Shown here piece after piece: positions 2,789 through 36,318 of a stretch of DNA of 46,728 nucleotides. The stretch spans positions 1-46,728 of the forward strand of contig JAURPT010000068.1 in the NCBI GenBank assembly GCA_030836535.1, in the 5' to 3' direction. The stretch is from Alphaproteobacteria bacterium (GTDB lineage: Bacteria > Pseudomonadota > Alphaproteobacteria > SMXS01). Position numbers and translations under genes: made by a program. A model generated the notes under the pieces. That model was not told the DNA's origin. It was given only the letters and a program-made list of their open reading frames with translations, and made no database searches. Numbering within the stretch: position 1 is the first letter of the stretch; the number at the start of each line of letters is the position of its first letter.

Positions 2789-3757
2789 TTACCAGCGAAG
2801 CACTGCTGCACCCCAGGTCAGGCCTGCGCCCATGGCTTCAAGCAACAGGATGTCGCCTTCATTGACCTTGCCTTCGCGCACGGCCCGGTCCAGCGCCAGC
2901 GGCACGGACGCGGCAGACGTGTTGCCATGGTCTGCAATGGTGATCATCACCTGTTCGGCATCCATCCGCAGCTTCTTGCCCACGCCGTCAATGATGCGTT
3001 TGTTGGCCTGGTGCGGCACCAGCAGGTCAATATCATCCTGTGTCAGGTCGGTCTTGGCCAGCACTTCGCCAATAACAGACGACAGGTTACTGACAGCATG
3101 ACGAAACACGTCCTTGCCTTCCATCTGGATCGTACCGGACGTACCGGTCATAGACGTACCGCCATCGGAATAGAGAATGTCATGCTGGCGGCCGTCACTT
3201 CGCAGCTTGGATGCAACCACGCCCCGGTTGCCAACGTCGTCCCGGCCCTGCAGAACGACAGCGCCTGCACCGTCGCCAAAAAGCACGCAGGTGGTGCGGT
3301 CTTCCCAGTCGATGATACGTGTAAGTGTCTCTGCACCGATCAGCAGAATGTTTTTGGCCTGACCACTGCGAATGAACCCGTCAGCAATCGACAGACCATA
3401 GATAAAGCCAGAGCAGGCGGCCTGAATGTCAAAGGCTGCACCTTCGTGCATGCCCAGAGCGGCCTGAACCTTACAGGCAGTAGAGGGCAGCGTTTCATCA
3501 GGCGTCGTGGTTGCCACAATGATAAAATCGAGATCTTCAGCGGTGAGCCCGGCAGATTCCAGAGCCGCTTTGCCGGCACCAATTGCCAGGTCGGAGGTAT
3601 ATTCACCGTCTGCAGCCATGTGGCGCTGTCGAATGCCTGAGCGTTCAGTAATCCATTCGTCGCTGGTATCCACCCACTCGGTGAGGTCGTTATTGGTAAC
3701 AACGCGCTCCGGCAGGAAGCCGCCCGTACCGGCAATGACACACCTCATCTCGCTCAT
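2789..3757 (-). CDS. fabH: Beta-ketoacyl-ACP synthase III
   Basis: FabH condenses acetyl-CoA with malonyl-ACP to start fatty-acid synthesis. The 322-residue protein has the full catalytic triad: Cys115 in DIQAACSGF, His249 in VPHQANKRI and Asn279 in ADHGNTSA. The GDGAGA turn typical of the family is also present. The ATG overlaps the plsX stop as ATGA, so translation is probably coupled. The gene belongs to the rpmF-plsX-fabH unit. Confidence 0.96.
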   Translation of the reverse strand: MSEMRCVIAGTGGFLPERVVTNNDLTEWVDTSDEWITERSGIRQRHMAADGEYTSDLAIGAGKAALESAGLTAEDLDFIIVATTTPDETLPSTACKVQAALGMHEGAAFDIQAACSGFIYGLSIADGFIRSGQAKNILLIGAETLTRIIDWEDRTTCVLFGDGAGAVVLQGRDDVGNRGVVASKLRSDGRQHDILYSDGGTSMTGTSGTIQMEGKDVFRHAVSNLSSVIGEVLAKTDLTQDDIDLLVPHQANKRIIDGVGKKLRMDAEQVMITIADHGNTSAASVPLALDRAVREGKVNEGDILLLEAMGAGLTWGAAVLRW

Positions 3758-20189: not shown

Positions 20190-20936
20190 ATGCTTCTTGA
20201 AAACAAAATCGGCATTGTCACCGGTGGTGGCTCTGGCATCGGCGAAGCAACAGCTCTCGCCATGGCGGCAGAAGGCGCAACCGTTGTGATCGGCAACCGC
20301 ACGGTTGAGACCGGCGAGGCTGTCTGTCACAAAATCGAAAGTGCCGGTGGCAAAGCCATCTTCCAGCGCACGGATGTTGCCAGCGCTGCTGACAATGAAG
20401 CACTGGTGGGCCGCGCTGAGCAAGAATATGGCCGCCTGGACCTGGCCTTTTGTAATGCCGGTATCTTCATGGAAGACTCCGTGCCCATCCACGAAATGCC
20501 GGTCGACCAGATTGAGCGCGGCATCAACATCAACCTGACTGGCAATATCTACACCATCAAATATTCGGTGGCGGCCATGCTCCGCGCCGGGGGTGGGTCG
20601 ATCGTGACCAATTCATCCATCTTTGGCCTCAAGGGTATGGTCGGCCTTAGCTGGTACACCGCTGCCAAGCACGGCATCAACGGCATCACCAAGAACACCG
20701 CGCTGGAATATGCCGACCAGAACATCCGCGTAAACGCCATCGCCCCAGGCATGACCAAGACGCCGTCCTTCGACGAATCAACCGGTGGTGACGATGAATT
20801 ATTCGCCGGCGTGGTGCCCATGGGCCGCATTTCCCAGTCGAGCGAAATTGCCGACGCCGTTGTCTACCTGATGTCGGACAAAGCCAGCTATATCACGGGC
20901 GCTGTGCTGTCTGCCGATGGGGGCATGTCTGCCTAA
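20190..20936 (+). CDS. SDR-family NAD(P)-dependent oxidoreductase
   Basis: This 248-residue classical short-chain dehydrogenase interconverts an alcohol and a ketone with NAD(P). The cofactor motif is TGGGSGIG, the NNAG motif reads CNAG, and the active site has Ser in VTNSSIFG and Tyr-x3-Lys in YTAAKHG. The C-terminal SADGG is typical. AAGGA lies nine bases before the ATG. It is a single-gene unit closed by a terminator at 20973. The substrate is unknown; the context suggests an alcohol in the surrounding degradation pathway. Confidence 0.93.
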   Translation: MLLENKIGIVTGGGSGIGEATALAMAAEGATVVIGNRTVETGEAVCHKIESAGGKAIFQRTDVASAADNEALVGRAEQEYGRLDLAFCNAGIFMEDSVPIHEMPVDQIERGININLTGNIYTIKYSVAAMLRAGGGSIVTNSSIFGLKGMVGLSWYTAAKHGINGITKNTALEYADQNIRVNAIAPGMTKTPSFDESTGGDDELFAGVVPMGRISQSSEIADAVVYLMSDKASYITGAVLSADGGMSA

Positions 20937-20972
20937 GCAGGCTCCATCAACACACGTCACACGGACTGATTT

Positions 20973-20996
20973 GCCCTCGCGAAAGCGGGGGCTTTT
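20973..20996 (+). terminator. Terminator after the SDR gene
   Basis: An eight-pair stem GCCCTCGC/GCGGGGGC (one T-G pair) with a stable GAAA tetraloop is followed by TTTT. It lies 36 bases after the SDR stop. Confidence 0.8.
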
Positions 20997-21051
20997 CATA
21001 TCTGCAATTGTTGGGCACACTTCCCCAGTATATTTCCAGGGGGAGGAAGTC

Positions 21052-22260
21052 ATGGCACCCAAACCATTCACCATCGATGTACCGCAAGAGCGGCTGGATT
21101 GGATCAGGCAACGCATCGCCGACTATGAATGGTTTGAAGAGCCGGCAGATTCTGACCGCGACGGCGTGTGGGCCTATGGGGCCAACAAGTCCTTTATGCA
21201 GGACCTCGCCCGCTATTGGCTGGACGAGTATGACTGGCGCAAACAAGAAGCGGCGATGAACCGCTTTGACCACTTTACCGCCCCGTGTGAAGGCCGTGAC
21301 GGCACCATCGACATCCACTTCATTCATGAGCGCGGGTCGAACCCGGATAATCTGCCGGTCATCGTCATGCATGGCTGGCCCGGCTCTTATGTAGAGCATC
21401 TGGAGACCATCGAGCCCATTGCCCACCCGGAGCGCTTTGGCGGCGACGTAGCAGACGGCCGTGATGTCATTGTCCCCTCGCTGGTGGGCTATGGCTGGTC
21501 CGGCAAACCCAAGACGCCGATGGGCCCGCGCGCCATGGGGGCCTATATGAACGACCTAATGGTGAACCAGCTGGGCTACCCGTGCTATGTCGCCCAGGGC
21601 GGCGACTGGGGTGGAATCATGGCCAATTGGATGGGCTTTGATTTCGGTGAAGATAAGGGAGGCCCAATCAAAAGCATCCATGTGAACCTGATTGGTCTGC
21701 GCCCGACCGACGAAAACGGCCAGCTGCCACCAGAGACCGATGAAGAAATCACCCACGCCGCCGAGGCCGCCGACAGGTTCAACGGCGAAAACGGCTATTT
21801 CCTGGTGCATGCCAGCAAGCCACAAAGCCTCGCCATGGGGATGATGGACAGCCCCATGGGCATCGCCGCCTGGATTACCGAGAAGTTCCACACCTGGTCG
21901 GACCGGTCCGGCAGGGGCGAGGTAAGCGGCGTGCTGGAAAACACCTATTCATATGACCAGCTGCTCAACAACATCATGGTCTATATCGCCAGCCGCACGT
22001 TCAATACGTCGACCTGGAATTACTATGGCGCCAGGTTGGAAGGCGGCTTTTTCATGCCGCCGGGCGAAAAAGTCGGCGTGCCTACGGGCGTGGCCAGCTT
22101 CCCCCGCGAAATCGCGCCCGTACCCCCTGCTTCATACGTGAAGAAGGGGTATAATCTGGTGCGCTACACGGAAATGCCTCGCGGCGGGCACTTTGGGGCG
22201 ATGGAACAACCGGAAGACTTCTGCGCCGAGCTCGCCAAGTTTTTGAAGGAGTGGGGGTAG
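21052..22260 (+). CDS. Epoxide hydrolase (EHN-type alpha/beta hydrolase)
   Basis: The 402-residue protein matches microsomal/juvenile-hormone-type epoxide hydrolases, which add water to epoxides. The N-terminal EHN region begins FTIDVPQERLDWIRQRI. The oxyanion motif is HGWPGS (107-112), the nucleophile is Asp185 in GGDWGG, and the catalytic His is His380 in RGGHFGAMEQPE. I start at the ATG at 21052, which has GGGAGGAAG upstream. An upstream extension of the frame runs through the SDR terminator and is not coding. It could process an epoxide formed by the oxygenases encoded nearby; that is inference. Confidence 0.93.
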   Translation: MAPKPFTIDVPQERLDWIRQRIADYEWFEEPADSDRDGVWAYGANKSFMQDLARYWLDEYDWRKQEAAMNRFDHFTAPCEGRDGTIDIHFIHERGSNPDNLPVIVMHGWPGSYVEHLETIEPIAHPERFGGDVADGRDVIVPSLVGYGWSGKPKTPMGPRAMGAYMNDLMVNQLGYPCYVAQGGDWGGIMANWMGFDFGEDKGGPIKSIHVNLIGLRPTDENGQLPPETDEEITHAAEAADRFNGENGYFLVHASKPQSLAMGMMDSPMGIAAWITEKFHTWSDRSGRGEVSGVLENTYSYDQLLNNIMVYIASRTFNTSTWNYYGARLEGGFFMPPGEKVGVPTGVASFPREIAPVPPASYVKKGYNLVRYTEMPRGGHFGAMEQPEDFCAELAKFLKEWG

Positions 22261-22386: not shown

Positions 22387-22911
22387 TCAAATCTCCCGCA
22401 AATTCTCCCGAAACATCCGCCCTTTTTCAACATAGGCGGCGGCGTGGAGCAGCTGCATCTTTTCGTCTTCTTCCCCGCGCTGGCGGATGATTTTGCCGGG
22501 CACACCGAGGACCATGGAATTATCCGGGATTTCCTTGTTCGTGCCCACCAGCGCACCGGCGCCGATGAGGCAATTGCGGCCAATCTTCGCCCCGTCCAAA
22601 ATCGTGGCGCCCATACCGATCAGTGAATTGTCGCCAATCGTACAGCCATGGACGATGGCCTTGTGGCCGATGGTCACATTCTTGCCCACGGTGCAGGGAT
22701 AGACCGGGTCCAGATGCAGCACCGCATTGTCCTGAATATTGGTATTTTCTCCAATGGTCATGGTGTTATCATCGGCCCGCAGCACCGCACCAAACCAGAT
22801 ATTCACATTGTCTTCGAGAATCACATTGCCCATTACATCGGCGCTGGGGGCAATAAAGACGGTGTTTTCGTTATATTGAGGGGTGGCATCGCCAATGGCA
22901 TAGACTGTCAT
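22387..22911 (-). CDS. Gamma-carbonic anhydrase-like protein
   Basis: The 174-residue protein is a left-handed beta-helix of hexapeptide repeats (NVILED, NVNIWF, GAVLRA, NTNIQD, NVTIGH, NSLIGM, NCLIGA) with a C-terminal helix. The three zinc histidines are His66, His83 and His88, with the five-residue spacing of gamma-carbonic anhydrases. The family includes carbonic anhydrases and the PaaY/YrdA proteins, some of which have thioesterase activity in CoA-dependent aromatic degradation. The latter role would fit this neighbourhood, but the sequence does not decide it. It is divergent from the CoA-transferase operon. Confidence 0.92.
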   Translation of the reverse strand: MTVYAIGDATPQYNENTVFIAPSADVMGNVILEDNVNIWFGAVLRADDNTMTIGENTNIQDNAVLHLDPVYPCTVGKNVTIGHKAIVHGCTIGDNSLIGMGATILDGAKIGRNCLIGAGALVGTNKEIPDNSMVLGVPGKIIRQRGEEDEKMQLLHAAAYVEKGRMFRENLREI

Positions 22912-23010
22912 GGTCAGGAACCTTTGAGAGAAGAGTCTTTTGTTGTGGCGCTTATGAAGGACTTTTTGCAGTATGCGCGCAACTTATTTCAGAGAGTCGG
23001 AGAAATGATC

Positions 23011-24216
23011 ATGCCTGGTGTTCTTGACGGTGTCCGTGTGCTGGACTTTGGCCGCTATATTGCAGGCCCCTATTGCACAACCATGCTGGGCTATCTGGGC
23101 GCAGAAGTTATTCGCGTTGAAAAGCGCGCCGGAGGTGAAGACCGCTACGTTTACCCGCTCTATCACAATGAAGATGGCAGCGAAGGCAAAGGCTCGCTGT
23201 TCTATCAGGTCGGTGCCAACAAAAAGAGCGTCACCCTGAACCCGGCCAGCGAAAAGGGCCGCGAGATCGTCAAGAAGCTGGTCGCTACCGCCGATGTGGT
23301 CGTCGCCAACCTGCCCGGGCCAGCCATGAAGCACCTCGAGCTGGACTATGACAGCCTGGTGAAGATCAAGCCCGATATTATCCAGACATCTATCTCCACC
23401 TTTGGTGATGAAGGCCCCTATGCCGAACGCGGCGGGTTCGACGGCATTGGCCAGGTGATGTCAGGCGCGGCCTGGTTCTCTGGTACCGCAGACAGCGGCC
23501 CGGTAAAGGCCAATGCGCCATACATCGACTTTGGCACGGCCATTCTGTCGGCTTATGCGACGCTGGCTGCCATTATGCACCACCGCGCTACCGGCGAAGG
23601 CCAGGCCGTCAATGGGGCACTGTTGAACACCGGCCTGATGATGGCCAATGGCCTGCTGATGGAACAGGCAGTGTTGAACATTAACCGCCAGCCCACGGGC
23701 AACCGGGTGCAGACCTCTGCCCCCAGCGACATTTTCGCCACCAAGGACGGCCATGTGCTGACCCATATTGTTGGTAATGGCCTGTTCAAGCGCTGGGCCA
23801 TTATGGTGGGTGAAGAAGAACAGTGGACGATGGATGAACGCTTCCGGTCCGACCAATCACGCGGCGACCACCGCGACATCGTGTGCGAGCGCATGGCCGA
23901 ATGGTGCCTGGAACGCACGACGGAAGAAGTGCTCGACCTCTGCGCTGAATTCGGCGTACCCGCCGGTCCCGTACTGGCCCCGGCACAGACGCTGGAGCAC
24001 CCGCAGGTGCAGGCCATGGGCGTGATGGAACCGGTCGACATTCCCGGCCAAAGCACCCCTGCCCCGGTGATGGGCGCGCCTTTTGGGCTTTCGAAGACCC
24101 CGGGCACCCTGCGCAGCGTGGCGCCAGACCTGGGTGCTGACACAGACGATATTCTCGGTGAAGTTGGCTATACCGCTGATGACCTCGCCGCCCTGCGCGA
24201 CGAAAAGGTGATTTAA
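23011..24216 (+). CDS. CaiB/BaiF-type (class III) CoA-transferase with Asn in place of the catalytic Asp
   Basis: The 401-residue protein has the family fold: VLDFGRYIAGPYCTTMLGYLGAEVIRVE near the N-terminus (split across two strands), GANKKSVTLN and the C-terminal PAPVMGAPFG. Class III enzymes move CoA between acids through an aspartyl thioester; the Asp lies in a G-x-G-Q-x-V-D-x-x-L-x-D motif. Here the motif reads GEGQAVNGALLNT, with Asn206 (codon AAC) at the catalytic position. The ATG at 23011 has GGAG eight bases upstream; an ATG at 23005 is possible. It opens the six-gene plus-strand operon ending at 29296. Confidence 0.9.
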   Translation: MPGVLDGVRVLDFGRYIAGPYCTTMLGYLGAEVIRVEKRAGGEDRYVYPLYHNEDGSEGKGSLFYQVGANKKSVTLNPASEKGREIVKKLVATADVVVANLPGPAMKHLELDYDSLVKIKPDIIQTSISTFGDEGPYAERGGFDGIGQVMSGAAWFSGTADSGPVKANAPYIDFGTAILSAYATLAAIMHHRATGEGQAVNGALLNTGLMMANGLLMEQAVLNINRQPTGNRVQTSAPSDIFATKDGHVLTHIVGNGLFKRWAIMVGEEEQWTMDERFRSDQSRGDHRDIVCERMAEWCLERTTEEVLDLCAEFGVPAGPVLAPAQTLEHPQVQAMGVMEPVDIPGQSTPAPVMGAPFGLSKTPGTLRSVAPDLGADTDDILGEVGYTADDLAALRDEKVI

Positions 24217-24274: not shown

Positions 24275-24643
24275 ATGGCTGTCGAATATCTCGACCACAT
24301 CAATATCAACACCAAGAAGCTGGATGAATGCATCAGCTTCTACAGGAATATCATCGGGCTGGAAGACGGCTTCAGGCCGGATATTCCCATACCCGGCGCT
24401 TGGATGTATTGCGAAGGCCGCCCGGTCATGCACATCATGGAAATGGATGGCGGTCGTGAAGGCCCCACCGGCCCTATCGACCATGTGGCGTTCAAATGCA
24501 CCGGGTTGGCAGACTTCAAGCAACGCATCGAAGACGCAGGCCTGAAATGGGAGGTCAACACCATTGCTGAAATGGGTGTAACCCAGCTTTATGTTGACGA
24601 CCCGGACGGCGTGAAAGTCGAACTGAACTTCGAGGAAGTATAA
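24275..24643 (+). CDS. VOC-family (glyoxalase/bleomycin resistance fold) metalloprotein
   Basis: The 122-residue protein consists of two beta-alpha-beta-beta-beta units. The four metal ligands expected in the fold are present: His8 (LDHINI), His53 (VMHIMEM), His70 (IDHVAF) and Glu117 (KVELNF). VOC enzymes include isomerases, epimerases such as methylmalonyl-CoA epimerase, and extradiol dioxygenases; the single-domain size argues against a dioxygenase. Its stop overlaps the next start as TAATG. Function in the operon is unknown. Confidence 0.9.
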   Translation: MAVEYLDHININTKKLDECISFYRNIIGLEDGFRPDIPIPGAWMYCEGRPVMHIMEMDGGREGPTGPIDHVAFKCTGLADFKQRIEDAGLKWEVNTIAEMGVTQLYVDDPDGVKVELNFEEV

Positions 24644-25233
24644 TGCCGCGCGTTGACCCCCTGCCCATGGAAGGATTGGGCGAATTGAAACCCATGCTGG
24701 AGGGCCTGGCGGCCCAGTCCGGCTATGAAATGAACAGCCTGAAGACCCTGGGCCGCAAGCCCGAGATTGTGCAGACACTGATGGCCTTTGCCACCACCGT
24801 CATGGGCCCGGGCGACGTTTCAGCAGAATTGAAGAACATGGTGGCGCAGATTGTCTCCAAATCCGCCGGCTGCGGCTATTGCATGGCCCATACCAGCAAT
24901 GCCGGCCACGGCCCCAATGATGCCGACAAGGATGCCGCCCTCTGGGAATACGAAACGTCTGACCTGTTCAGCGAGGCAGAACGCTCCGCGCTTCGGGTCG
25001 CCCAGGGGGCCGGGCAAAGCCCCAATGCCGTCACCGATGAAGACTTCAACGCCCTGAAGGAGCATTTCAGCGATGACCAGATTATCGAAATTGTCTCGGT
25101 GATCAGCATGTTCGGCTTTTTCAACCGGTTCAACGACACCATGGCGACCGAGCTGGAAAACTCACCCCTGCGCCATGCCCAGGAAACGCTTGGGCCCAAA
25201 GGCTGGGCCGTCGGAAAACATGCGGCTGAATAG
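24643..25233 (+). CDS. AhpD-like / carboxymuconolactone decarboxylase-family protein
   Basis: The 196-residue all-helical protein has the AhpD redox motif Cys77-x-x-Cys80-x-x-His83 (CGYCMAH). AhpD-family members with this motif act as thiol-disulfide or peroxide-reducing proteins; those without it act as decarboxylases. Peroxidase-type redox function is therefore more likely than decarboxylation. The start overlaps the VOC stop, so the two are translationally coupled. It might protect the pathway from peroxide released by uncoupled oxygenases; that is inference. Confidence 0.88.
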   Translation: MPRVDPLPMEGLGELKPMLEGLAAQSGYEMNSLKTLGRKPEIVQTLMAFATTVMGPGDVSAELKNMVAQIVSKSAGCGYCMAHTSNAGHGPNDADKDAALWEYETSDLFSEAERSALRVAQGAGQSPNAVTDEDFNALKEHFSDDQIIEIVSVISMFGFFNRFNDTMATELENSPLRHAQETLGPKGWAVGKHAAE

Positions 25234-25259: not shown

Positions 25260-26516
25260 ATGAACCATGCACCAGGCGCGGACCTGGCGGGCCTGAACCC
25301 TGCCAAGCTGGATGATTTGCGCAAGGCCATGCAGGCCTATATCGACGATGAAAAGCTGGCCTCGATCGTCACCATGATCTGGAAGGATGGCACGCTAGTC
25401 ACCGCTGATGCCTACGGCGTCCAGGACCTGGAAACCAAGGTTCCAACGCAGATCGACAGTATCTTCCGCATCTATTCCATGACCAAGCCCATCACCGGCG
25501 TGGCTCTGATGACACTGTATGAACAGGGTAAATTCCAGCTCGATGACCCGGTCGGTAATTACCTGCCGGACCTCGCCGACGTTGAAGTGTTTGTCGAACA
25601 AACAGACGATGGCACCATCGTAACCGAGCCGTGCAAAACGCCCATGACCATCCGCCAGCTGATGACGCACACAGCCGGGCTGTCCTATGGGTGGCGCGAC
25701 CACCCGGTCGACAGGCTCTATGCCAAAAACAAAATCAACGATTTTGGCGGCACGGTTGCTGGCAATGTTGAAAGCCTGAGCACCATTCCCCTTCTCTACC
25801 ACCCCGGTGAAGGCTGGCAATATAGCGTGGCGGTGGATGTACAGGCCCGCCTGATCGAGGTGCTGTCGGGTATGGCCTATCGCGACTATCTGAAACTGGC
25901 CGTGCTGAACCCGCTGGGTATGCTGGATACAGACTTCTTCGTGCCCGAAGACAAGCGGCATCGTTTTACGACCAATTACGGGCCGGGTGAAAATGCCGGC
26001 GGCATGGCACCCTCGGCCCTGTCAGTGCGCGGCGAACCTTTTGGCAAGGCAGGGATTGAACGCGTTGATCAGCCGGGCCATGGCTCGGTCTATGACAGCC
26101 TGCCCTCCTTCTGCATGGGTGGTGGCGGCCTGGCCTCAACCGGGCCGGATTATCTGACCTTCGCCACCATGCTGGCCCAGAAGGGTGAAGCCAATGGCGT
26201 ACGCATCCTCAAACCGAAAACCGTCGAGCTAATGACCCGAAACCAGATCGCAGACGAGCTGATCCCAATTAACCTTGAGGGCATGGCCATGCCGGAAACC
26301 GGCTTCGGCCTCGACCTGTCGGTCCGCATGACCGATGAGATCGACTATTGGCCGGGCGTTGTGGGTGAATATGGCTGGTCGGGGGCTGCCAGCACGCACT
26401 TCTTTGTGGCGCCAGAGCAGAATCTCGTCGGCATCCTGTTGACCCAGATGCTGCCCGCCTATACTTACCTGATCGAAATTGAGTTCAAGAAGCACATCTA
26501 TGATGCGCTGGACTGA
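25260..26516 (+). CDS. Serine hydrolase, class C beta-lactamase / esterase fold
   Basis: The 418-residue protein has the S-x-x-K motif SMTK (Ser73, Lys76) and a Tyr-Ser-Val motif (WQYSVAVDV, Tyr near 187) of the penicillin-binding/beta-lactamase-like serine hydrolases. No signal peptide is present, so it is cytoplasmic and unlikely to confer beta-lactam resistance. EstB-type esterases and lactonases share this fold. The likely role is hydrolysis of an ester or lactone intermediate. It lies 26 bases after the AhpD-like gene with a weak ribosome-binding site. Confidence 0.88.
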   Translation: MNHAPGADLAGLNPAKLDDLRKAMQAYIDDEKLASIVTMIWKDGTLVTADAYGVQDLETKVPTQIDSIFRIYSMTKPITGVALMTLYEQGKFQLDDPVGNYLPDLADVEVFVEQTDDGTIVTEPCKTPMTIRQLMTHTAGLSYGWRDHPVDRLYAKNKINDFGGTVAGNVESLSTIPLLYHPGEGWQYSVAVDVQARLIEVLSGMAYRDYLKLAVLNPLGMLDTDFFVPEDKRHRFTTNYGPGENAGGMAPSALSVRGEPFGKAGIERVDQPGHGSVYDSLPSFCMGGGGLASTGPDYLTFATMLAQKGEANGVRILKPKTVELMTRNQIADELIPINLEGMAMPETGFGLDLSVRMTDEIDYWPGVVGEYGWSGAASTHFFVAPEQNLVGILLTQMLPAYTYLIEIEFKKHIYDALD

Positions 26517-26549: not shown

Positions 26550-28001
26550 ATGAGCGATATCGGCATTACATCATTCGGCGCCTACATTCCCAAAAAGCGC
26601 CTGAACCGGAAAGCCATTGCAGACGCCAATGCCTGGATGAACGGTGCCCTGCGCGGCATGGGCAAAGGCTCCAAGGCCATGTGCAATTGGGACGAAGACG
26701 CCCTGACCATGGCCACCGAGGCCGTCCGAAACTGCCTGGCAGGCGCAGACACCAGCCCGTATGGCAAGCTCTATTTCGGCTCGACAACCCACCCCTTTGT
26801 CGACCGCCACAATGCCGGCATTATTGCCGCCGCGCTCAACCTGTCTGAAGACATCCGCTCGCTCGATGTCGGTGGCTCACAGCGCGCTGGCACCTCGGCC
26901 CTTTCTGAAGCGCTGGACGGCCTGGGTGACGGCAACACCTTGGTAGTTGCCTCTGACGCGCGCCCGGCCAAACCGGGCTCGGTTCAGGAAATGCAGTTTG
27001 GTGATGCCGCTGCAGCTTTTGCGTTGGGCTCTGAACATGTAATTGCACGTTTCCTATCCAGCCACTCCGTCGCGCTCGACCTGGTTGATCATTACCGCGC
27101 CGCTGGTGAAGATTTCGACTATGCCCTGGAAGATCGTTGGATCAAGGAAATGGGCTATGACATCATTATCCCCGAAGCCGGTGCCAAGGCGCTTGAAAAA
27201 GCAGGCCTGACCGGGGCAGACATCGACCACTTCATCATGCCCGTGCGCCAGCGCCGACTGGACACAGGCCTGGCCAAGAAACTGGGTATTGCGGCTGAAG
27301 CCGTACGCCCCAACATGAACCCGGAAATTGGCGAGGCGGGCACTGCCCATGCCCTGCTGATGCTGGTGGACGCGCTGGAGGCTGCCGAGCCAGGCCAGAA
27401 GATCATGGTCGTAGGCTTTGGCCAGGGTACAGATGTCCTGATTTTCGAGACCACTGAGGCGCTCAAGGCCCTGGGTGCCCGCCGCGGCGTCAAGGTACAC
27501 CTGGAAGCCGGTGTGGAAGAAAACATCTACACACGCTACCTGTCGTTCCGCCGCATCCTGCCTTACGAATGGGGCATCCGTGCCGAGCGTGACAATCGCA
27601 CAGCACAAAGCACCTTCTTTCGCAAGCGCGACAGCATTACCTCCTTCATCGGTGGCAAATGCAGCCAGTGCGGCACGCTGCAATTCCCGAAATCACGCGT
27701 CTGCGTGAACCCGAATTGCCAGGCCATTGAGACGCAGGAAGACCACCCCTTCGCCGACATGCCCGCCAGCATCAAGACCTTTACGGAAGATAATCTGGCC
27801 TATTCCCCCTCACCGCCCTACCAATATGGTAATGTGGCGTTCAAGGAAGGCGGCAATATCTACATGGAAATTACCGACTTCGACCCCGGCGTGCTGGAAA
27901 TCGGCACCGAGCTGAAGATGGTGTTCCGCATCAAGGATTTTGACGACAAGCGCGGCTTCCGCCGGTATTTCTGGAAAGCTGCGCCTGCTGACAACGCGTA
28001 A
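26550..28001 (+). CDS. HMG-CoA synthase-like thiolase-fold protein fused to a DUF35 OB-fold domain
   Basis: Residues 1 to about 305 have the thiolase fold (ITSFGAYIPKKRL start as in HMG-CoA synthase/FabH). About 350-483 is a DUF35 module: a rubredoxin-like zinc ribbon (Cys371, Cys374, Cys385, Cys390) followed by an OB-fold. The nucleophile motif, normally N-A-C-x-G-T, reads GGSQRAGTSAL, with Gln111 (CAG) at the Cys position. The catalytic His region reads FIMPVRQRR, not PHQAN. The domain is thus unlikely to form an acyl-enzyme. DUF35 proteins bind CoA and pair with thiolases in archaeal HMG-CoA synthesis and in steroid side-chain cleavage. The partner here is the thiolase 36 bases downstream. 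Confidence 0.88.
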   Translation: MSDIGITSFGAYIPKKRLNRKAIADANAWMNGALRGMGKGSKAMCNWDEDALTMATEAVRNCLAGADTSPYGKLYFGSTTHPFVDRHNAGIIAAALNLSEDIRSLDVGGSQRAGTSALSEALDGLGDGNTLVVASDARPAKPGSVQEMQFGDAAAAFALGSEHVIARFLSSHSVALDLVDHYRAAGEDFDYALEDRWIKEMGYDIIIPEAGAKALEKAGLTGADIDHFIMPVRQRRLDTGLAKKLGIAAEAVRPNMNPEIGEAGTAHALLMLVDALEAAEPGQKIMVVGFGQGTDVLIFETTEALKALGARRGVKVHLEAGVEENIYTRYLSFRRILPYEWGIRAERDNRTAQSTFFRKRDSITSFIGGKCSQCGTLQFPKSRVCVNPNCQAIETQEDHPFADMPASIKTFTEDNLAYSPSPPYQYGNVAFKEGGNIYMEITDFDPGVLEIGTELKMVFRIKDFDDKRGFRRYFWKAAPADNA

Positions 28002-28037
28002 GCCTGTCACAGACCCAAAGAGAAAGAGAGAAGCAAG

Positions 28038-29240
28038 ATGGCCCGAGGCATTAAAGACAAAGTCGCCATTATTGGCATGGGGTGCTCCAAATTCGGCGAA
28101 CGCTGGGACGCAAGCCCCGACGACCTGATGATGGAGAGCTACACCGAAGCCATTGATGATGCCGGCATCACCAAGGACGATCTGGGCATGGCCTGGATGG
28201 GCGTGTTCTTCGATGAACAGAATGTTGGCAAGTCGGCCCTGCCGCTGTCGCAGGCCCTGCGTCTGCCGAACATTCCCGTCACCCGCGTTGAAAACCTCTG
28301 CGCCACGGGCACCGAAGCACTCCGTGGGGCGGTTTACGCTGTGGCCGCTGGTGCCACCGACATCGCGCTGGCCGTGGGTGTTGAGAAGCTGAAAGACACG
28401 GGCTATGGCGGCTTGCCGGAGCGCACCAAAGGTACGTTTGAAGATTTGTGGCAGCCAAACTCCACAGCACCGGGTTCCTTCGCCCAGCTGGCAGCCGCCT
28501 ATGCTGCCAAGCACGACATCCCGATGGAAGACCTCAAGCGCGGCATGGCCCATGTTTCATGGAAGAGCCATCAGAACGGCGTCAAGAGCCCCAAGGCCCA
28601 CCTGCAGCGCACGGTGGAAATGGATGCGATCCTCGACGCACCGATGATCTCCTTCCCGCTGGGCCTGTATGATTGCTGCGGCGTGTCGGACGGCTCAGCT
28701 GCTGCCATTGTCACCACCCCGGAAATCGCCCGTGAAATGGGCCATGACAACCCGGTTACCGTGAAAGCCATGCAGCTGGCCCCGTCGAACGGTGTGGAAA
28801 TGTCCCATAATTCCTGGGATGGCTCTTACACGCTGACCACCCGTATTGCCGCCCAGCGCGCTTACGAAGAAGCCGGTGTGACCGACCCGGTCAAGCAGAT
28901 CGGCATGACCGAAGTGCATGACTGCTTCTCGATCACCGAACTGGTGGTGATGGAAGATTTGCAGCTGTCAGAAGAGGGCCGAGCGGTGAACGACATTCTC
29001 GACGGCAAGTTCGACGCCACCGGCGACGTGCCCTGCCAGATCGATGGCGGCCTGAAATGCTTCGGCCACCCGATTGGCGCCTCTGGCCTGCGCATGGCCT
29101 ATGAGGTCTACACCCAGCTGCGCGGCCGCGGCGGCGAGCGCCAGATCAAGGACGTGAATATGGGCCTGACCCATAATCTCGGCGGCATTCCTAACCGGAA
29201 TATCTCGAGCGTTTCGATCCTGGGCCGCTATAGCGACTAA
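28038..29240 (+). CDS. Thiolase-family protein (SCP2/SCP-x thiolase-like)
   Basis: The 400-residue protein has a thiolase nucleophile Cys88 (ENLCATGTEAL), His294 (EVHDCFSITE) and His344 (CFGHPIGASG). The usual second catalytic cysteine motif near the C-terminus (C-x-G-G-G) is replaced by HNLGG, as in SCP-x-type thiolases. Retaining Cys and both His points to thiolytic or Claisen chemistry rather than the repurposed aldolase site of the steroid enzyme Ltp2. It ends the operon and probably forms a complex with the DUF35 fusion protein encoded just upstream. Substrate unknown. Confidence 0.91.
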   Translation: MARGIKDKVAIIGMGCSKFGERWDASPDDLMMESYTEAIDDAGITKDDLGMAWMGVFFDEQNVGKSALPLSQALRLPNIPVTRVENLCATGTEALRGAVYAVAAGATDIALAVGVEKLKDTGYGGLPERTKGTFEDLWQPNSTAPGSFAQLAAAYAAKHDIPMEDLKRGMAHVSWKSHQNGVKSPKAHLQRTVEMDAILDAPMISFPLGLYDCCGVSDGSAAAIVTTPEIAREMGHDNPVTVKAMQLAPSNGVEMSHNSWDGSYTLTTRIAAQRAYEEAGVTDPVKQIGMTEVHDCFSITELVVMEDLQLSEEGRAVNDILDGKFDATGDVPCQIDGGLKCFGHPIGASGLRMAYEVYTQLRGRGGERQIKDVNMGLTHNLGGIPNRNISSVSILGRYSD

Positions 29241-29266: not shown

Positions 29267-29296
29267 AGCCGCCCTGGCAACGGGGCGGCTCTTTTT
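29267..29296 (+). terminator. Terminator of the CoA-transferase/thiolase operon
   Basis: A perfect eight-pair stem AGCCGCCC/GGGCGGCT with an eight-base loop is followed by CTTTTT, 27 bases after the thiolase stop. Confidence 0.9.
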
Positions 29297-31824: not shown

Positions 31825-33249
31825 ATGGACTATAACCTCCAGGACGGCGGACCAACGATCAACCCGAATGCGGACACAAGCGCGCCGGACCGCAAGGCCC
31901 CCTATGTACAGAACGGCACAGAGGTGCTGGACCCTGCCCGCTATTACGATGCCGCATTTGCCCGCAAGGAATGGGACCGCATGTGGACCCGCGTGTGGAC
32001 CATTGCCGGCATTGTGGCCGACATTCCTGAAGTCGGCGACTACATCAAATATGACCTGCTACATGAAAGCTTCATCGTCACCCGCGTGGGCGAAGGGGCT
32101 GAAGACATCAAGGCCTATTACAATGTCTGCGGCCATCGCGGTAACCAGCTGGTGATGAATGATCTGGGCAGCGTGACCGACGGCTTTACCTGCGCCTTTC
32201 ATTCCTGGCGCTGGGGCATCAATGGCGAACTGCAGCACGTAACAGATGCCGCTTCCTTCCAGCCCGAAGTGCTGGAACGCGTGCCCGGCATGGCCGAAGT
32301 GCATGTCGGCATTGTCGCCGGAATTATCTTCATCAATATGGATGACAACCCCCCGCCCCTGCGGGACTTCCTGGGCGTTGTTGCCGACCATATGGAAAGT
32401 TTTGAGGTCGACAAAATGCATGTCGCCCGCCATGTGCGCACTGAATGGGCCGCGAACTGGAAAACGGGCATCGACGCCTTTTATGAGACCTATCACCTGC
32501 ATGCCGTGCACCCTGAAACCCAGGGCGTGATGGCCGATATCGACGTGCAATATGATTGCTACCCCAATGGCATGAGCCGCATGATTGTGCCCATTGGCGC
32601 GCCCAGCCCACGGGTGCCAGACCAGGAAAGCGTCAATGAAGGCCTGGCCATGATGTTGGCCGAAGTGGGCATCGACCCGGTCGCCTTTGAAGGCAATGCT
32701 GCTGACGTGCAACAGGCCATTCGCGACAAGAAGCGCGAGAATGCCAAAACCGTGGGGTTGGACTATGACAACCTCGCCGACACGCAACTGACAGACAGCT
32801 TTGCCACCGGCATCTTTCCCAATGTGCAGTTCGGCATGCACCCCGAAGGGGCGTTTCTGATGCGCTTTATGCCGCACCCGACGGAGCCGGAACGTTTCAC
32901 CTATGACACCATGACCCTGGTACGCTATGTGGACGACCCCAATTTCAGTGTACCGGGCTGGATGGGCCTGCCCGAAGGTATCGATTGTACCGGCGCCATT
33001 CGCCCCGACATTGAACATAAAGGCATTGGTGAGCCGCCCGAGCTGGGCCTGGTGCTGGACCAGGATTCAGAGTTGCTGCCTGTTGTGCAACGCGGCATAA
33101 GGTCGCGCGGTTTTGCAGGGGCCCTGTGGGGTGAACAGGAACAGCGCCTGCGCCACTTCCATAACGAGTTAGACCGCTATGTCGATGGCGAAAATAGTCC
33201 TGCCATCGCGCCGCGCACCTATACTATCAAACAAGAAACCAACAACTGA
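31825..33249 (+). CDS. Rieske non-heme iron oxygenase, alpha subunit (first of two)
   Basis: The 474-residue protein has an N-terminal Rieske domain with Cys102-x-His104 and Cys123-x2-His126. The C-terminal catalytic domain has the mononuclear-iron ligands His224 and His229 (FYETYHLHAVH), the bridging Asp217 and an Asp at 412/414 (LDQDSELLPVVQRG). Such enzymes insert one or two oxygen atoms using electrons from a ferredoxin. There is no beta-subunit gene nearby, so it is an alpha-only type. AAGGGG precedes the ATG. It opens a four-gene operon with the ligase, a second oxygenase and an aldehyde dehydrogenase. Substrate unknown. Confidence 0.94.
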   Translation: MDYNLQDGGPTINPNADTSAPDRKAPYVQNGTEVLDPARYYDAAFARKEWDRMWTRVWTIAGIVADIPEVGDYIKYDLLHESFIVTRVGEGAEDIKAYYNVCGHRGNQLVMNDLGSVTDGFTCAFHSWRWGINGELQHVTDAASFQPEVLERVPGMAEVHVGIVAGIIFINMDDNPPPLRDFLGVVADHMESFEVDKMHVARHVRTEWAANWKTGIDAFYETYHLHAVHPETQGVMADIDVQYDCYPNGMSRMIVPIGAPSPRVPDQESVNEGLAMMLAEVGIDPVAFEGNAADVQQAIRDKKRENAKTVGLDYDNLADTQLTDSFATGIFPNVQFGMHPEGAFLMRFMPHPTEPERFTYDTMTLVRYVDDPNFSVPGWMGLPEGIDCTGAIRPDIEHKGIGEPPELGLVLDQDSELLPVVQRGIRSRGFAGALWGEQEQRLRHFHNELDRYVDGENSPAIAPRTYTIKQETNN

Positions 33250-33257
33250 GACCCAAC

Positions 33258-34889
33258 ATGACCGATACCGCCATCAACACCTTTGGCTGCCTGCTCGACA
33301 ACGCTGCCCGCAACTGGCCCGACAATGACGCCGTCATTTTCCCGGAAACACGCCAGACTTTCAGCGCGCTGTATGACCGCTCAATGCTGCGGGCCCGCCA
33401 GCTGATCGCCCTGGGTGTTCAGCCGGGGGAACATGTCGGCATCCTGCTGCCAACGGGGATGGAATTTGTTGAGGTCATGTTCGGCATTGCACTGGCCGGT
33501 GCCGTGATGGTGCCGATCAATGCCCGCTATCGGTCGAACGAGATCACCTATCTGACCGAAAATGCCGATTTGGTGACCATCGTGACCACCGGTCAGGTGT
33601 CAGACGGGCTGAACTTTGTTGAGCGCCTCTATGAAGGCCTGCCCGGCGTTGCCGACGCAGCAGACGCCAAGGCTCTAAATGTCGAGGTTGCCCCCAAGCT
33701 GCGCAATATCATGATGCTGGGCGATGAAACCGCCGCTGGTATTGTGCCGGAAGCCGACGCAACGGCAGCCGGGGCAGATATTGCCGCAGCCGACATCGAG
33801 GCCCGCCGTGACGGCGTCGACGGCGACGACATTGCCATGATCCTTTACACCTCGGGCACCACATCAAACCCCAAGGGCTGCCTATTGTCTGGCGATGCGC
33901 TGATCCAGAATGGCCGCGCCCTGGCCAATGTTTATGAAATGACCGGCGAAGACAGCTTCTGGTCGCCGCTGCCGATGTTCCACATCGCCGCCACCTTCCC
34001 GATGGCCGCCTGCATGGATATTGGCTGTGCCTACATCACCATGAGCTATTTTGAACCGGGTGCTGCGCTCAAGCTACTCGCCGACACCAAGGCGACGGTT
34101 ACCTATCCGTGCTTCGTGACCATTATCAGCGATATGGTCAACCACCCGGACTGGGATACGGTCGATCTCTCCCACGCCCGTGTGATGAACATTTCACCCG
34201 GCCTGCAGCCACCTGCGATTATCGAGAAAATCGAAGCTAAAATGCCAGACTGCATCATGGTCGGCACTTTTGGCCTGTCGGAAGCCTCCGGCACCGTGTG
34301 TTCCCACACGCTGAGCGACCCACGAGAAGTCCGCCATGACCGCCTGGGCGGCCCGATGCCCGGCCAGGAAGTCAAGATTGTTGACCCGGAAACCGGCAAG
34401 GAATGTGCCCCGCTGGACCATGGTGAAATCCTGGTGCGCGGCCCGAATATCCTGAAGGGCTATTACAAGGACCCTGTGAAGACGGCAGAGGCCATCGACG
34501 CAGATGGCTGGCTGCACACGGGCGACACAGGCTCGCTGGATGAAAACAACCAGATCATGTTCCATGGTCGTATTAAGGATATGCTGAAGGTTGGTGGTGA
34601 AAATGTCGCTGCTGCCGAAATTGAAACACTGCTGCAGGAGCACCCCTCGGTGAAACTGGCACAGATCGTCAGCGCGCCCCATGAACGCCTGGTTGAAGTG
34701 CCTGCCGCCTTCATTGAGCTGGAAGATGGCACCAGCGCCACGGAAGAAGAGCTGATCGAATTTTGCAAGGGCAAGATCTCGAGCTTCAAGATTCCGCGCT
34801 ATGTCCGCTTCACGTCTGACTGGCCGATGTCGACATCGAAGATCCAGAAGTACAAGCTGCGCGATCAGATCGCCGCCGAGATCGCCTGA
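33258..34889 (+). CDS. AMP-forming acyl-CoA ligase (class I adenylate-forming enzyme)
   Basis: The 543-residue enzyme activates a carboxylic acid with ATP and joins it to CoA. Motifs in order are YTSGTTSNPKG (ATP loop), FGLSEASG, HTGDTG, the hinge GRIKDMLKVGGENV and the C-terminal STSKIQKYKLR with the catalytic Lys. It most resembles the CaiC/long-chain ligase branch. It starts eight bases after the first oxygenase gene, so acid activation and oxygenation are likely steps of one pathway. It is the natural entry point for CoA-dependent degradation by the proteins encoded at 17-29 kb. Confidence 0.94.
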   Translation: MTDTAINTFGCLLDNAARNWPDNDAVIFPETRQTFSALYDRSMLRARQLIALGVQPGEHVGILLPTGMEFVEVMFGIALAGAVMVPINARYRSNEITYLTENADLVTIVTTGQVSDGLNFVERLYEGLPGVADAADAKALNVEVAPKLRNIMMLGDETAAGIVPEADATAAGADIAAADIEARRDGVDGDDIAMILYTSGTTSNPKGCLLSGDALIQNGRALANVYEMTGEDSFWSPLPMFHIAATFPMAACMDIGCAYITMSYFEPGAALKLLADTKATVTYPCFVTIISDMVNHPDWDTVDLSHARVMNISPGLQPPAIIEKIEAKMPDCIMVGTFGLSEASGTVCSHTLSDPREVRHDRLGGPMPGQEVKIVDPETGKECAPLDHGEILVRGPNILKGYYKDPVKTAEAIDADGWLHTGDTGSLDENNQIMFHGRIKDMLKVGGENVAAAEIETLLQEHPSVKLAQIVSAPHERLVEVPAAFIELEDGTSATEEELIEFCKGKISSFKIPRYVRFTSDWPMSTSKIQKYKLRDQIAAEIA

Positions 34890-34983
34890 GCATGCGGTAC
34901 TAACAGAAAAGGCTTTTGCCCGCCCGTTAAACGGTCCTATCCTTGAGCATATCAGAGAGAGAGACGTTCTAAGGGGGAAAGCC

Positions 34984-36318
34984 ATGTCGCAGGCTGAACG
35001 TTACGTTTTTACGCAGGAACATCCGTCGCCTTCGGGCACCAAGCCCATATCGGCAGAGCGCTATATATCGCCAGAGCTGCTGGCACGAGAATTTGACACG
35101 ATTTTCGCCCAGTCCTGGCTATGCGCAGGTTTGGCCTCTGACGTGCAGGAACCGGGCGACTATTTCGTCTTTGATATCGGGCGCGAATCCATCCTTGTGT
35201 CGTGCAGCCAGACGGGTGAAGTCGTCGCCAATTACAATGTCTGCCAGCATCGCGGGGCCCGCGTCATGGTCAATGACCTGGGATGCGTTGATGCCTTTGT
35301 CTGCCCCTATCATGGCTGGAAATATGCGCCCGACGGTAAGTTGATCAACGTGCCGGACACAGACCGCTTCAGCCAAGGCGTGTGTAAGGAAGAGTTGTCC
35401 CTCAAACCCCTGCGGGTCGAAGTCTGGGCCGGGATGGTCTTTGTCTGTATGGATGATGATGCGCCAACGCTGGCGGAGTTCCTGGGGGCCATCCAGGCGA
35501 TGATTGAGCCTTTCCGCCCTCAGGACATGACGCTGATTGAAGACCAGACCTGCCACTTGGAATGTAACTGGAAGGCCGTGTTCGATAATTTCCACGAGCT
35601 GTACCATGTGGAACATATCCACCCGCAGCATGCGCTGATCTTCGATTGCCTGCACTGCAACACCGACATGATGGACCTGGGCCACAGCCGCGTGGTGATT
35701 GAAGGCTTTACCGTCGATACTCGGCTCGACCTGCCCGACTACCCAACCGAGATCATGGTGCCCCAGATGAAGGTACTGGGCATGGACCCGGAAGATTATC
35801 GGGGCCGGGTGCTGGATGTACGCAAGGACGTGCAGAAAAAGCGCCGCGAAATGGGGCCGTCACTGGGACAGGACTATGACCTGCTGAGCGACGAAGAACT
35901 GTCCGACATCGTACAGTACAACATCTTCCCGAACCTGATTGTCGTCTTGCAGCCCGAAAACATGCTGATCATGCGGGCCATGCCGCATGCAACCAACCCT
36001 AACAAGTGCCATTGGGACAAGTTCACCTTCATTATGGAGCCTGATGCCTCTGTTGCCGAGCGGCACAATGTGTCCTTCAATATGGGCCAGGACACGCCTC
36101 AAATTCCCGAAGAACGCCCCGAGCGGGATGTGTTTGAACAGGAAGATATTATTGCTGGTCGCAAAACCATGACTATCACCATCGACCAGGACATTCACTT
36201 CATTCGTGATGTGCAGCGGGGCATGCATTCGCGCGGTTTTGGCACCGCCTTCCTGAATGATGATGAATGCCGCATCCAGCACTATCACGACTGGTACAAC
36301 CACCATATGGGGATATAG
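34984..36318 (+). CDS. Rieske non-heme iron oxygenase, alpha subunit (second)
   Basis: The 444-residue protein has Rieske ligands Cys87-x-His89 and Cys107-x2-His110. The iron site has His208 and His213 (FHELYHVEHIH), bridging Asp201 and an Asp in TIDQDIHFIRDVQRG. The ATG at 34984 has AAGGGGGAAAG upstream; the open frame before it overlaps the ligase and is not used. It shares the overall plan and the QRG-x-x-SRGF segment with the oxygenase at 31825 but differs in the rest, indicating an old duplication or separate recruitment. It too lacks a beta subunit. Confidence 0.94.
   Translation: MSQAERYVFTQEHPSPSGTKPISAERYISPELLAREFDTIFAQSWLCAGLASDVQEPGDYFVFDIGRESILVSCSQTGEVVANYNVCQHRGARVMVNDLGCVDAFVCPYHGWKYAPDGKLINVPDTDRFSQGVCKEELSLKPLRVEVWAGMVFVCMDDDAPTLAEFLGAIQAMIEPFRPQDMTLIEDQTCHLECNWKAVFDNFHELYHVEHIHPQHALIFDCLHCNTDMMDLGHSRVVIEGFTVDTRLDLPDYPTEIMVPQMKVLGMDPEDYRGRVLDVRKDVQKKRREMGPSLGQDYDLLSDEELSDIVQYNIFPNLIVVLQPENMLIMRAMPHATNPNKCHWDKFTFIMEPDASVAERHNVSFNMGQDTPQIPEERPERDVFEQEDIIAGRKTMTITIDQDIHFIRDVQRGMHSRGFGTAFLNDDECRIQHYHDWYNHHMGI

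Follow-up and report, generated by a model that had tools for sequence, protein, structure and literature searches.

An HMG-CoA-synthase-like/DUF35 fusion protein as the probable non-catalytic partner of an SCP2-type thiolase in bacterial catabolic gene clusters

The window analysed here, a 46,728-nucleotide stretch from an Alphaproteobacteria bacterium (contig JAURPT010000068.1), carries two adjoining genes on one strand with a gap of 36 bases between them. The first (26550–28001, +), delineated by its open reading frame (ORF), Pfam matches, an AlphaFold model and alignment, encodes a 483-residue protein in which an HMG-CoA-synthase-like (HMGS-like) domain is fused to DUF35, and which we regard as probably catalytically silent. 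The second (28038–29240, +) encodes a thiolase of 400 residues. The two proteins are referred to as A and T. A preliminary description, made from the sequence alone, had proposed this gene pair, the domain architecture of A, a Gln in place of the nucleophilic Cys of A and an altered His/Asn region, and the analysis bears out all four points.

The HMGS/KAS-III-like half of A (residues 1–310; 26550–27479, +) adopts a PhlA-like fold in the AlphaFold model (pLDDT 83.8). PhlA is the best match in both fold and profile: in the fold comparison with the Protein Data Bank (PDB), PhlA (5mg5; TMt 0.80) ranks first, followed by the HMG-CoA synthase of M. thermolithotrophicus (MtHMGCS, 6esq; 0.84–0.85) and MucA (0.78–0.81). 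The C-terminal DUF35 contains a zinc ribbon (residues 366–395; 27645–27734, +) with all four ligands, Cys371, Cys374, Cys385 and Cys390, and matches zf-ChsH2 at 25.1 bits, above the cut-off of 23.2. The OB-fold part (residues 400–479; 27747–27986, +), which includes the invariant Trp475-Lys476, scores slightly below the cut-off of OB_ChsH2_C (24.1 against 27.1 bits), and its strands are present in the AlphaFold model.

Alignment with MtHMGCS places Gln111 of A (26880–26882, +) at the nucleophile Cys114, Pro231 (27240–27242, +) at the catalytic His and Glu262 (27333–27335, +) at the catalytic Asn. We notice a fourth loss beyond these, in which the catalytic Glu82 of MtHMGCS is replaced by Thr79 (26784–26786, +). 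In the model of A, residue 111 sits just ahead of a helix beginning at residue 113, as a nucleophile elbow would. The FabH encoded in the same window (2789–3757, −) served as a positive control: aligned together with A, it retains its Cys, His and Asn, so the mapping of the columns works. A also stays below the cut-offs of the archaeal HMG-CoA synthase models TIGR00748 (126.3 against 353.35 bits) and NF003274 (179.7 against 244 bits), and the TIGR00748 cut-off is exceeded in none of 142 genomes of the class. A therefore fails as an HMG-CoA synthase on its catalytic residues as well as on the model cut-offs. At the same four columns (Glu, Cys, His, Asn), PhlA carries Cys83, Gly115, Gln and Asp, and MucA carries Cys, Glu, Gln and Tyr. 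The total loss of the catalytic residues in A thus parallels both known Cys-less partners. In the structure of PhlABC, PhlA lacks the Cys and the Glu, and only residues of PhlC contact the bound phloroglucinol (PMC6392133).

Conservation was examined in homologues taken from whole genomes and 80 GTDB loci, with search motifs that exclude column 111. The sample comprises 156 A–T pairs with non-identical A proteins; these are relatives of the A protein in the window, so the counts are valid for the fused family only. At position 111, Cys is found in none of the 156 pairs (Gln 93, Leu 46, Arg 9, Met 6, Lys 1, Thr 1). The position of Thr79 is Thr in 151 of 156, that of Pro231 is Pro in 129 and His in 3, and that of Glu262 is Asp or Glu in 131 and Asn in 3. 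Apart from the zinc site, no well-conserved Cys that could substitute for the nucleophile exists among the 156 A proteins. Cys62 (106/156) and Cys45 (57/156) were considered as replacement catalytic Cys and rejected as too poorly conserved. All four zinc Cys are kept together in 123 A proteins, and zinc ligands are lost in 33.

Each of the 92 loci scored has the two genes on one strand. T is more similar than A in 99.94% of the pair comparisons, with a mean identity of 68% for T and 49% for A. A conserved T beside a diverging A is what one would expect of an enzyme with a structural partner. Candidate stretches for the family number at least 555 in genome contigs, and the family ranges over Alpha-, Beta- and Gammaproteobacteria, with intact A frames in nearly all loci. 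The suspicion that this is a poorly studied family was therefore justified, the more so as the member in an oestrogen-degradation cluster, described below, was left unassigned by its authors.

T bears the features of a complete SCP2-type thiolase. Its nucleophile Cys88 in the CATG motif (28299–28301, +), the HDCF motif from His294 to Phe297 (28917–28928, +) and His344 of the GHP motif in the oxyanion hole (29067–29069, +) are invariant in the family alignment; Cys88, His294, Asp295, Cys296, Phe297 and His344 are each conserved in 156 of 156. The preliminary description was right that Cys88, His294 and His344 are kept; its statement that the second Cys is lacking does not stand. T does lack the CxGGGxG Cys of classical thiolases and reads THNLGG at the C-terminal loop. 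In SCP2-type thiolases, however, the second catalytic Cys is that of HDCF rather than that of CxGGGxG (PMC7682436), and Cys296 of T aligns with Cys337 of the T. brucei SCP2 thiolase, the residue changed in the C337A mutant (PDB 4bia).

T matches NCBIfam NF004810 (PRK06157) at 658.5 bits against a cut-off of 403. Among PDB sequences, archaeal, SCP2 and benzoylsuccinyl-CoA thiolases (E 1.5e-55, 3.2e-48 and lower ranks) are far closer to T than PhlC is (9.6e-14). The structural model of T is weak (pLDDT 67.8) and was used for fold matches only, the best of which are again archaeal, benzoylsuccinyl-CoA and SCP2 thiolases.

On this basis we give a probability of roughly 0.7 to the reading that A is a catalytically silent scaffold, while T does the thiolytic chemistry in catabolic clusters. 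The pair would then be a two-gene version of the thiolase/HMGS-fold/DUF35 complex, as if PhlA and PhlB were fused in one chain. With its nucleophile, its Glu and its His/Asn pair all lost, the HMGS-fold half of A would be non-catalytic. In relatives, DUF35 connects the two thiolase-fold subunits and forms part of the lining of the CoA site; it may do the same in A, and A probably only holds T and the coenzyme. The chemistry would fall to T, with Cys88, His294/Cys296 and His344, and is most likely the thiolytic (retro-Claisen) cleavage of a β-ketoacyl-CoA at the end of a β-oxidation-like step. We infer the physical complex of A and T, the holding of CoA by A, the direction of cleavage and the substrate. 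A scaffold with the thiolase doing the chemistry was one of two roles suggested earlier for A, and it is well supported by the lost residues of A, the absence of a substitute Cys, the invariant residues of T and the Cys-less PhlA and MucA.

The genomic context is catabolic. Close upstream of A, Pfam matches and ORFs define genes for a VOC protein (24275–24643, +), a CMD/AhpD-like protein (24643–25233, +) and an EstB-type β-lactamase-fold hydrolase (25260–26516, +). Directly 3′ of the T gene lies a strong terminator-like hairpin with a T tail (29267–29290, +; 10 pairs, 8 of them G-C). The region holds 12 terminator-like sites against 8.7 in shuffled sequence, and only the place and strength of this hairpin stand out. 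Given the hairpin, the gene run to which the VOC, CMD and EstB-type genes belong seems to end with A and T.

Farther out, the cluster contains a CaiB/BaiF CoA-transferase (Pfam CoA_transf_3; 22915–24216, +), an epoxide hydrolase (20917–22260) and an acyl-CoA ligase with a Rieske oxygenase alpha subunit on either side (31825–36318). A gene for a gamma-carbonic-anhydrase-like protein on the opposite strand (22387–22911, −) lies inside it. Part of this arrangement recurs in relatives. A congeneric genome (L052/L151) has the order CMD-EstB-A-T. Locus L055 carries epoxide hydrolase, CaiB, VOC, A and T, its CaiB gene being 71% identical to that of the window and its carbonic-anhydrase-like gene, also beside CaiB, 61% identical; locus L053 carries A, T, a short-chain dehydrogenase/reductase (SDR), Rieske oxygenase and ligase. 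CaiB, VOC, epoxide hydrolase, Rieske oxygenase, acyl-CoA ligase and SDR genes are neighbours of the pair in the window and in its family.

In the set of 40 widely flanked loci, an MFE-2-type SDR is the most frequent neighbour (19/40), and 17 of its 19 copies are no more than 3 kb away; next in frequency are acyl-CoA dehydrogenases, hydratases and others. In a Sphingobium genome (L109), an SDR and an MFE-2-type MaoC hydratase stand directly upstream of A. This grouping of SDR, MaoC and thiolase has its counterpart in the peroxisomal module of MFE-2 plus SCP2-thiolase, and by this resemblance the context points to degradative thiolysis.

Searching the family of this Sphingobium genome, we found an A–T pair in the oestrogen cluster of Novosphingobium tardaugens NBRC 16725 (genome G570). 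The cluster encodes a P450, a lipid-transfer-like thiolase-fold protein, two crotonases, a thiolase, the A protein and an acyl-CoA dehydrogenase, and diverges from genes for an extradiol dioxygenase, a VOC protein and a 1151-residue 2-oxoacid oxidoreductase. It is the edc cluster described in PMC7793797. By position and size, with locus tags taken from the gene order, EGO55_13555 is the A member and EGO55_13550 its thiolase. As in the window, a Cys-less HMGS-DUF35 fusion (Leu at 111) stands beside a thiolase with Cys, HDCF and His intact, the identities to the window proteins being 33% for EGO55_13555 and 41% for EGO55_13550.

The authors of that study gave the 'HMG-CoA synthase' EGO55_13555 no step in the pathway and doubted that it has condensation activity (PMC7793797). 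Deletion of OpA, which removes both EGO55_13550 and EGO55_13555, abolishes growth on oestrogens (PMC7793797). The pair therefore sits in an operon that is experimentally required for oestrogen degradation, and EGO55_13555 acquires a direct, testable role if it is read as the non-catalytic half of the thiolase next to it. Three further loci (L197, L201, L202) have the same type of pair together with a large ORF of 1151–1166 residues resembling the oxidoreductase. The oestrogen cluster also encodes a second thiolase-fold protein (L196:3836-4987), which is of the lipid-transfer type, with YDAF replacing HDCF and no nucleophilic Cys. Since a ChsH2-like gene is present there too (PMC7793797), two DUF35-type systems may act in the one pathway.

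Several points weigh against the scaffold reading. Seventeen columns of A are invariant in all 156 proteins and include the charged residues Asp48, Glu49, Asp106, Glu194 and Arg196; these would fit an interface but could mean a different catalytic role. The correlation between A and T distances (r = 0.86) is also expected from shared ancestry. The T model is too weak for residue geometry, and the models are single chains. Moreover, the nearest Cys-less precedent, PhlABC, carries out CoA-independent C-acylation and not thiolysis.

A possible though distinctly less probable account is that the HMGS-fold half of A has been rebuilt as a substrate-handling or catalytic chamber, in which the variable old active site sets the range of a constant thiolase. 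Such a chamber might, for example, accommodate bulky acyl groups beside the active site of the thiolase, or perform a second step with the invariant charged residues. We consider it rather unlikely that A is an unusual enzyme in its own right, such as an aldolase or a hydrolase, whose working residues lie elsewhere in the old pocket or in DUF35. The invariant residues would accommodate such an enzyme, and the steroid aldolases Ltp2 and Sal, which use other catalytic residues, illustrate that those of the thiolase fold can be swapped (PMC12329534). However, three of the four old active-site columns (111, 231 and 262) vary, A evolves faster than T, and PhlA, which has the same losses, contributes no catalytic residues (PMC6392133).

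A function like that of PhlABC, CoA-independent C-acyl transfer to phenols, is improbable for the pair. Of the proteins with solved structures PhlA stands nearest to A, and Rieske oxygenases and an epoxide hydrolase are encoded close by; yet T, with its full HDCF and GHP motifs, resembles PhlC far less than it does the archaeal, SCP2 and benzoylsuccinyl-CoA thiolases, and CoA-dependent enzymes surround the pair.

The other earlier suggestion, that A is a decarboxylase comparable to the Cys-to-Gln ketosynthases (KS-Q), is disfavoured. In the loading modules of polyketide synthesis, KS-Q domains have Gln at the nucleophile position, keep the catalytic His and show that a Cys-to-Gln change can yield a decarboxylase. 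By analogy, Gln111 would stabilise an enolate, and A would feed acetyl-CoA or propionyl-CoA to T for condensation. The Gln of the window protein and of 93 relatives agrees with this, but the other 63 relatives carry Leu, Arg, Met, Lys or Thr, the His is almost always replaced, as by Pro231 in the window, and the clusters are catabolic with no polyketide context. We judge such a role very unlikely. Least probable of all is a decaying HMG-CoA synthase gene without function, which the four lost catalytic residues and the zinc ligands missing in 33 proteins might suggest and which we reject on conservation: frames are intact nearly everywhere, pairing is constant, the mean identity of A is 49% over 156 pairs with invariant residues, and A is found in three proteobacterial classes.

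Compared with known systems, the pair shares with PhlA/PhlB/PhlC (PpATase of Pseudomonas protegens, PDB 5m3k/5mg5; CsATase, 9skh) a Cys- and Glu-less HMGS-fold subunit, DUF35 and a thiolase-fold subunit with Cys88. It differs in having two genes instead of three, since DUF35 is fused in A and is the separate subunit PhlB in PhlABC; PhlA has Gly, not Gln, at the nucleophile position, and PhlABC is biosynthetic with a PhlC distant from T. The archaeal MtHMGCS system (6esq) has the same three folds, with a thiolase match of E 3.2e-48 and an HMGS fold at TMt 0.85. In contrast to A, its HMGS subunit is active, with Glu82, Cys114, His and Asn intact, DUF35 is a separate gene and the system belongs to the mevalonate pathway.

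SCP2-type thiolases (T. brucei, 4bi9; zebrafish, 6hsj) resemble T in the nucleophilic Cys, the second Cys in HDCF, the GHP motif and the missing CxGGGxG Cys; no HMGS-fold or DUF35 partner of theirs is described in the literature examined. BbsAB (7pxp), Ltp2-ChsH2 (6ok1) and Sal-Shy (9myr) are likewise catabolic thiolase-fold enzymes held by a DUF35 domain, BbsB being 25% identical to T over the fold, but they have no HMGS-fold subunit. The Cys-less partner is already known from PhlA and MucA, and the kind of system from PhlABC and MucABC; the fused two-gene catabolic form, its spread and the role proposed for its oestrogen-cluster member appear to be new. Neither the fused catabolic family nor the oestrogen link was described in the literature searched. 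Our findings suggest that a Cys-less HMGS-fold partner is a common design in catabolism, rather than being peculiar to the synthesis of the antibiotic diacetylphloroglucinol. The pair is carried by hundreds of bacteria, and A-type proteins are readily labelled HMG-CoA synthases, an annotation that misleads the reconstruction of pathways.

In a tree of 19 scaffolds, the fused family stands apart from PhlA plus MucA and from MtHMGCS; with several of its deep branches left open and long branches for FabH and MucA, the tree fits one or several losses of the Cys alike. Within the family, one clade (L132-L134 and L203-L207) has A proteins only 34–39% identical to that of the window, with T still 65–70% identical. 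Its members have Arg at 111, and their zinc-ribbon Cys are almost always gone; in L132 the genes adjoin MaoC, an HpcH/HpaI-type lyase, an acyl-CoA dehydrogenase and an SDR. In another set, L109, L117 and many of L168-L195, three of the four zinc Cys are lost (CTSD-type) although position 111 is still Gln or Leu; decay of the zinc site thus seems to have happened more than once. Viral contigs hold no relatives of the pair. A larger fusion in L135 (an 845-codon frame) was considered and rejected, its upstream part looking like read-through of non-coding sequence.

An unfused three-gene version exists in the same class (L138:5590-8213 and L139), consisting of an HMGS-like protein with Pro at the nucleophile position, a separate DUF35 protein and a thiolase close to archaeal acetoacetyl-CoA thiolase (E 1.8e-84). 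The pair is patchy in genome family f51, with 10 of 82 genomes carrying it. Single in-frame stops or a broken frame occur in A homologues of a few draft genomes (G002:C13:27457-28896, L011; G193, L034; G113, L137; G306:C22, L161), from sequencing error or as pseudogenes. The genome of the window (G000) has a second A–T pair on contig C58 (L148:8026-10786), 54% (A) and 68% (T) identical to that of the window and with Met at the nucleophile column. This second pair adjoins another Rieske oxygenase and an SDR, and both paralogous pairs are present in most genomes of the family to which this genome belongs.

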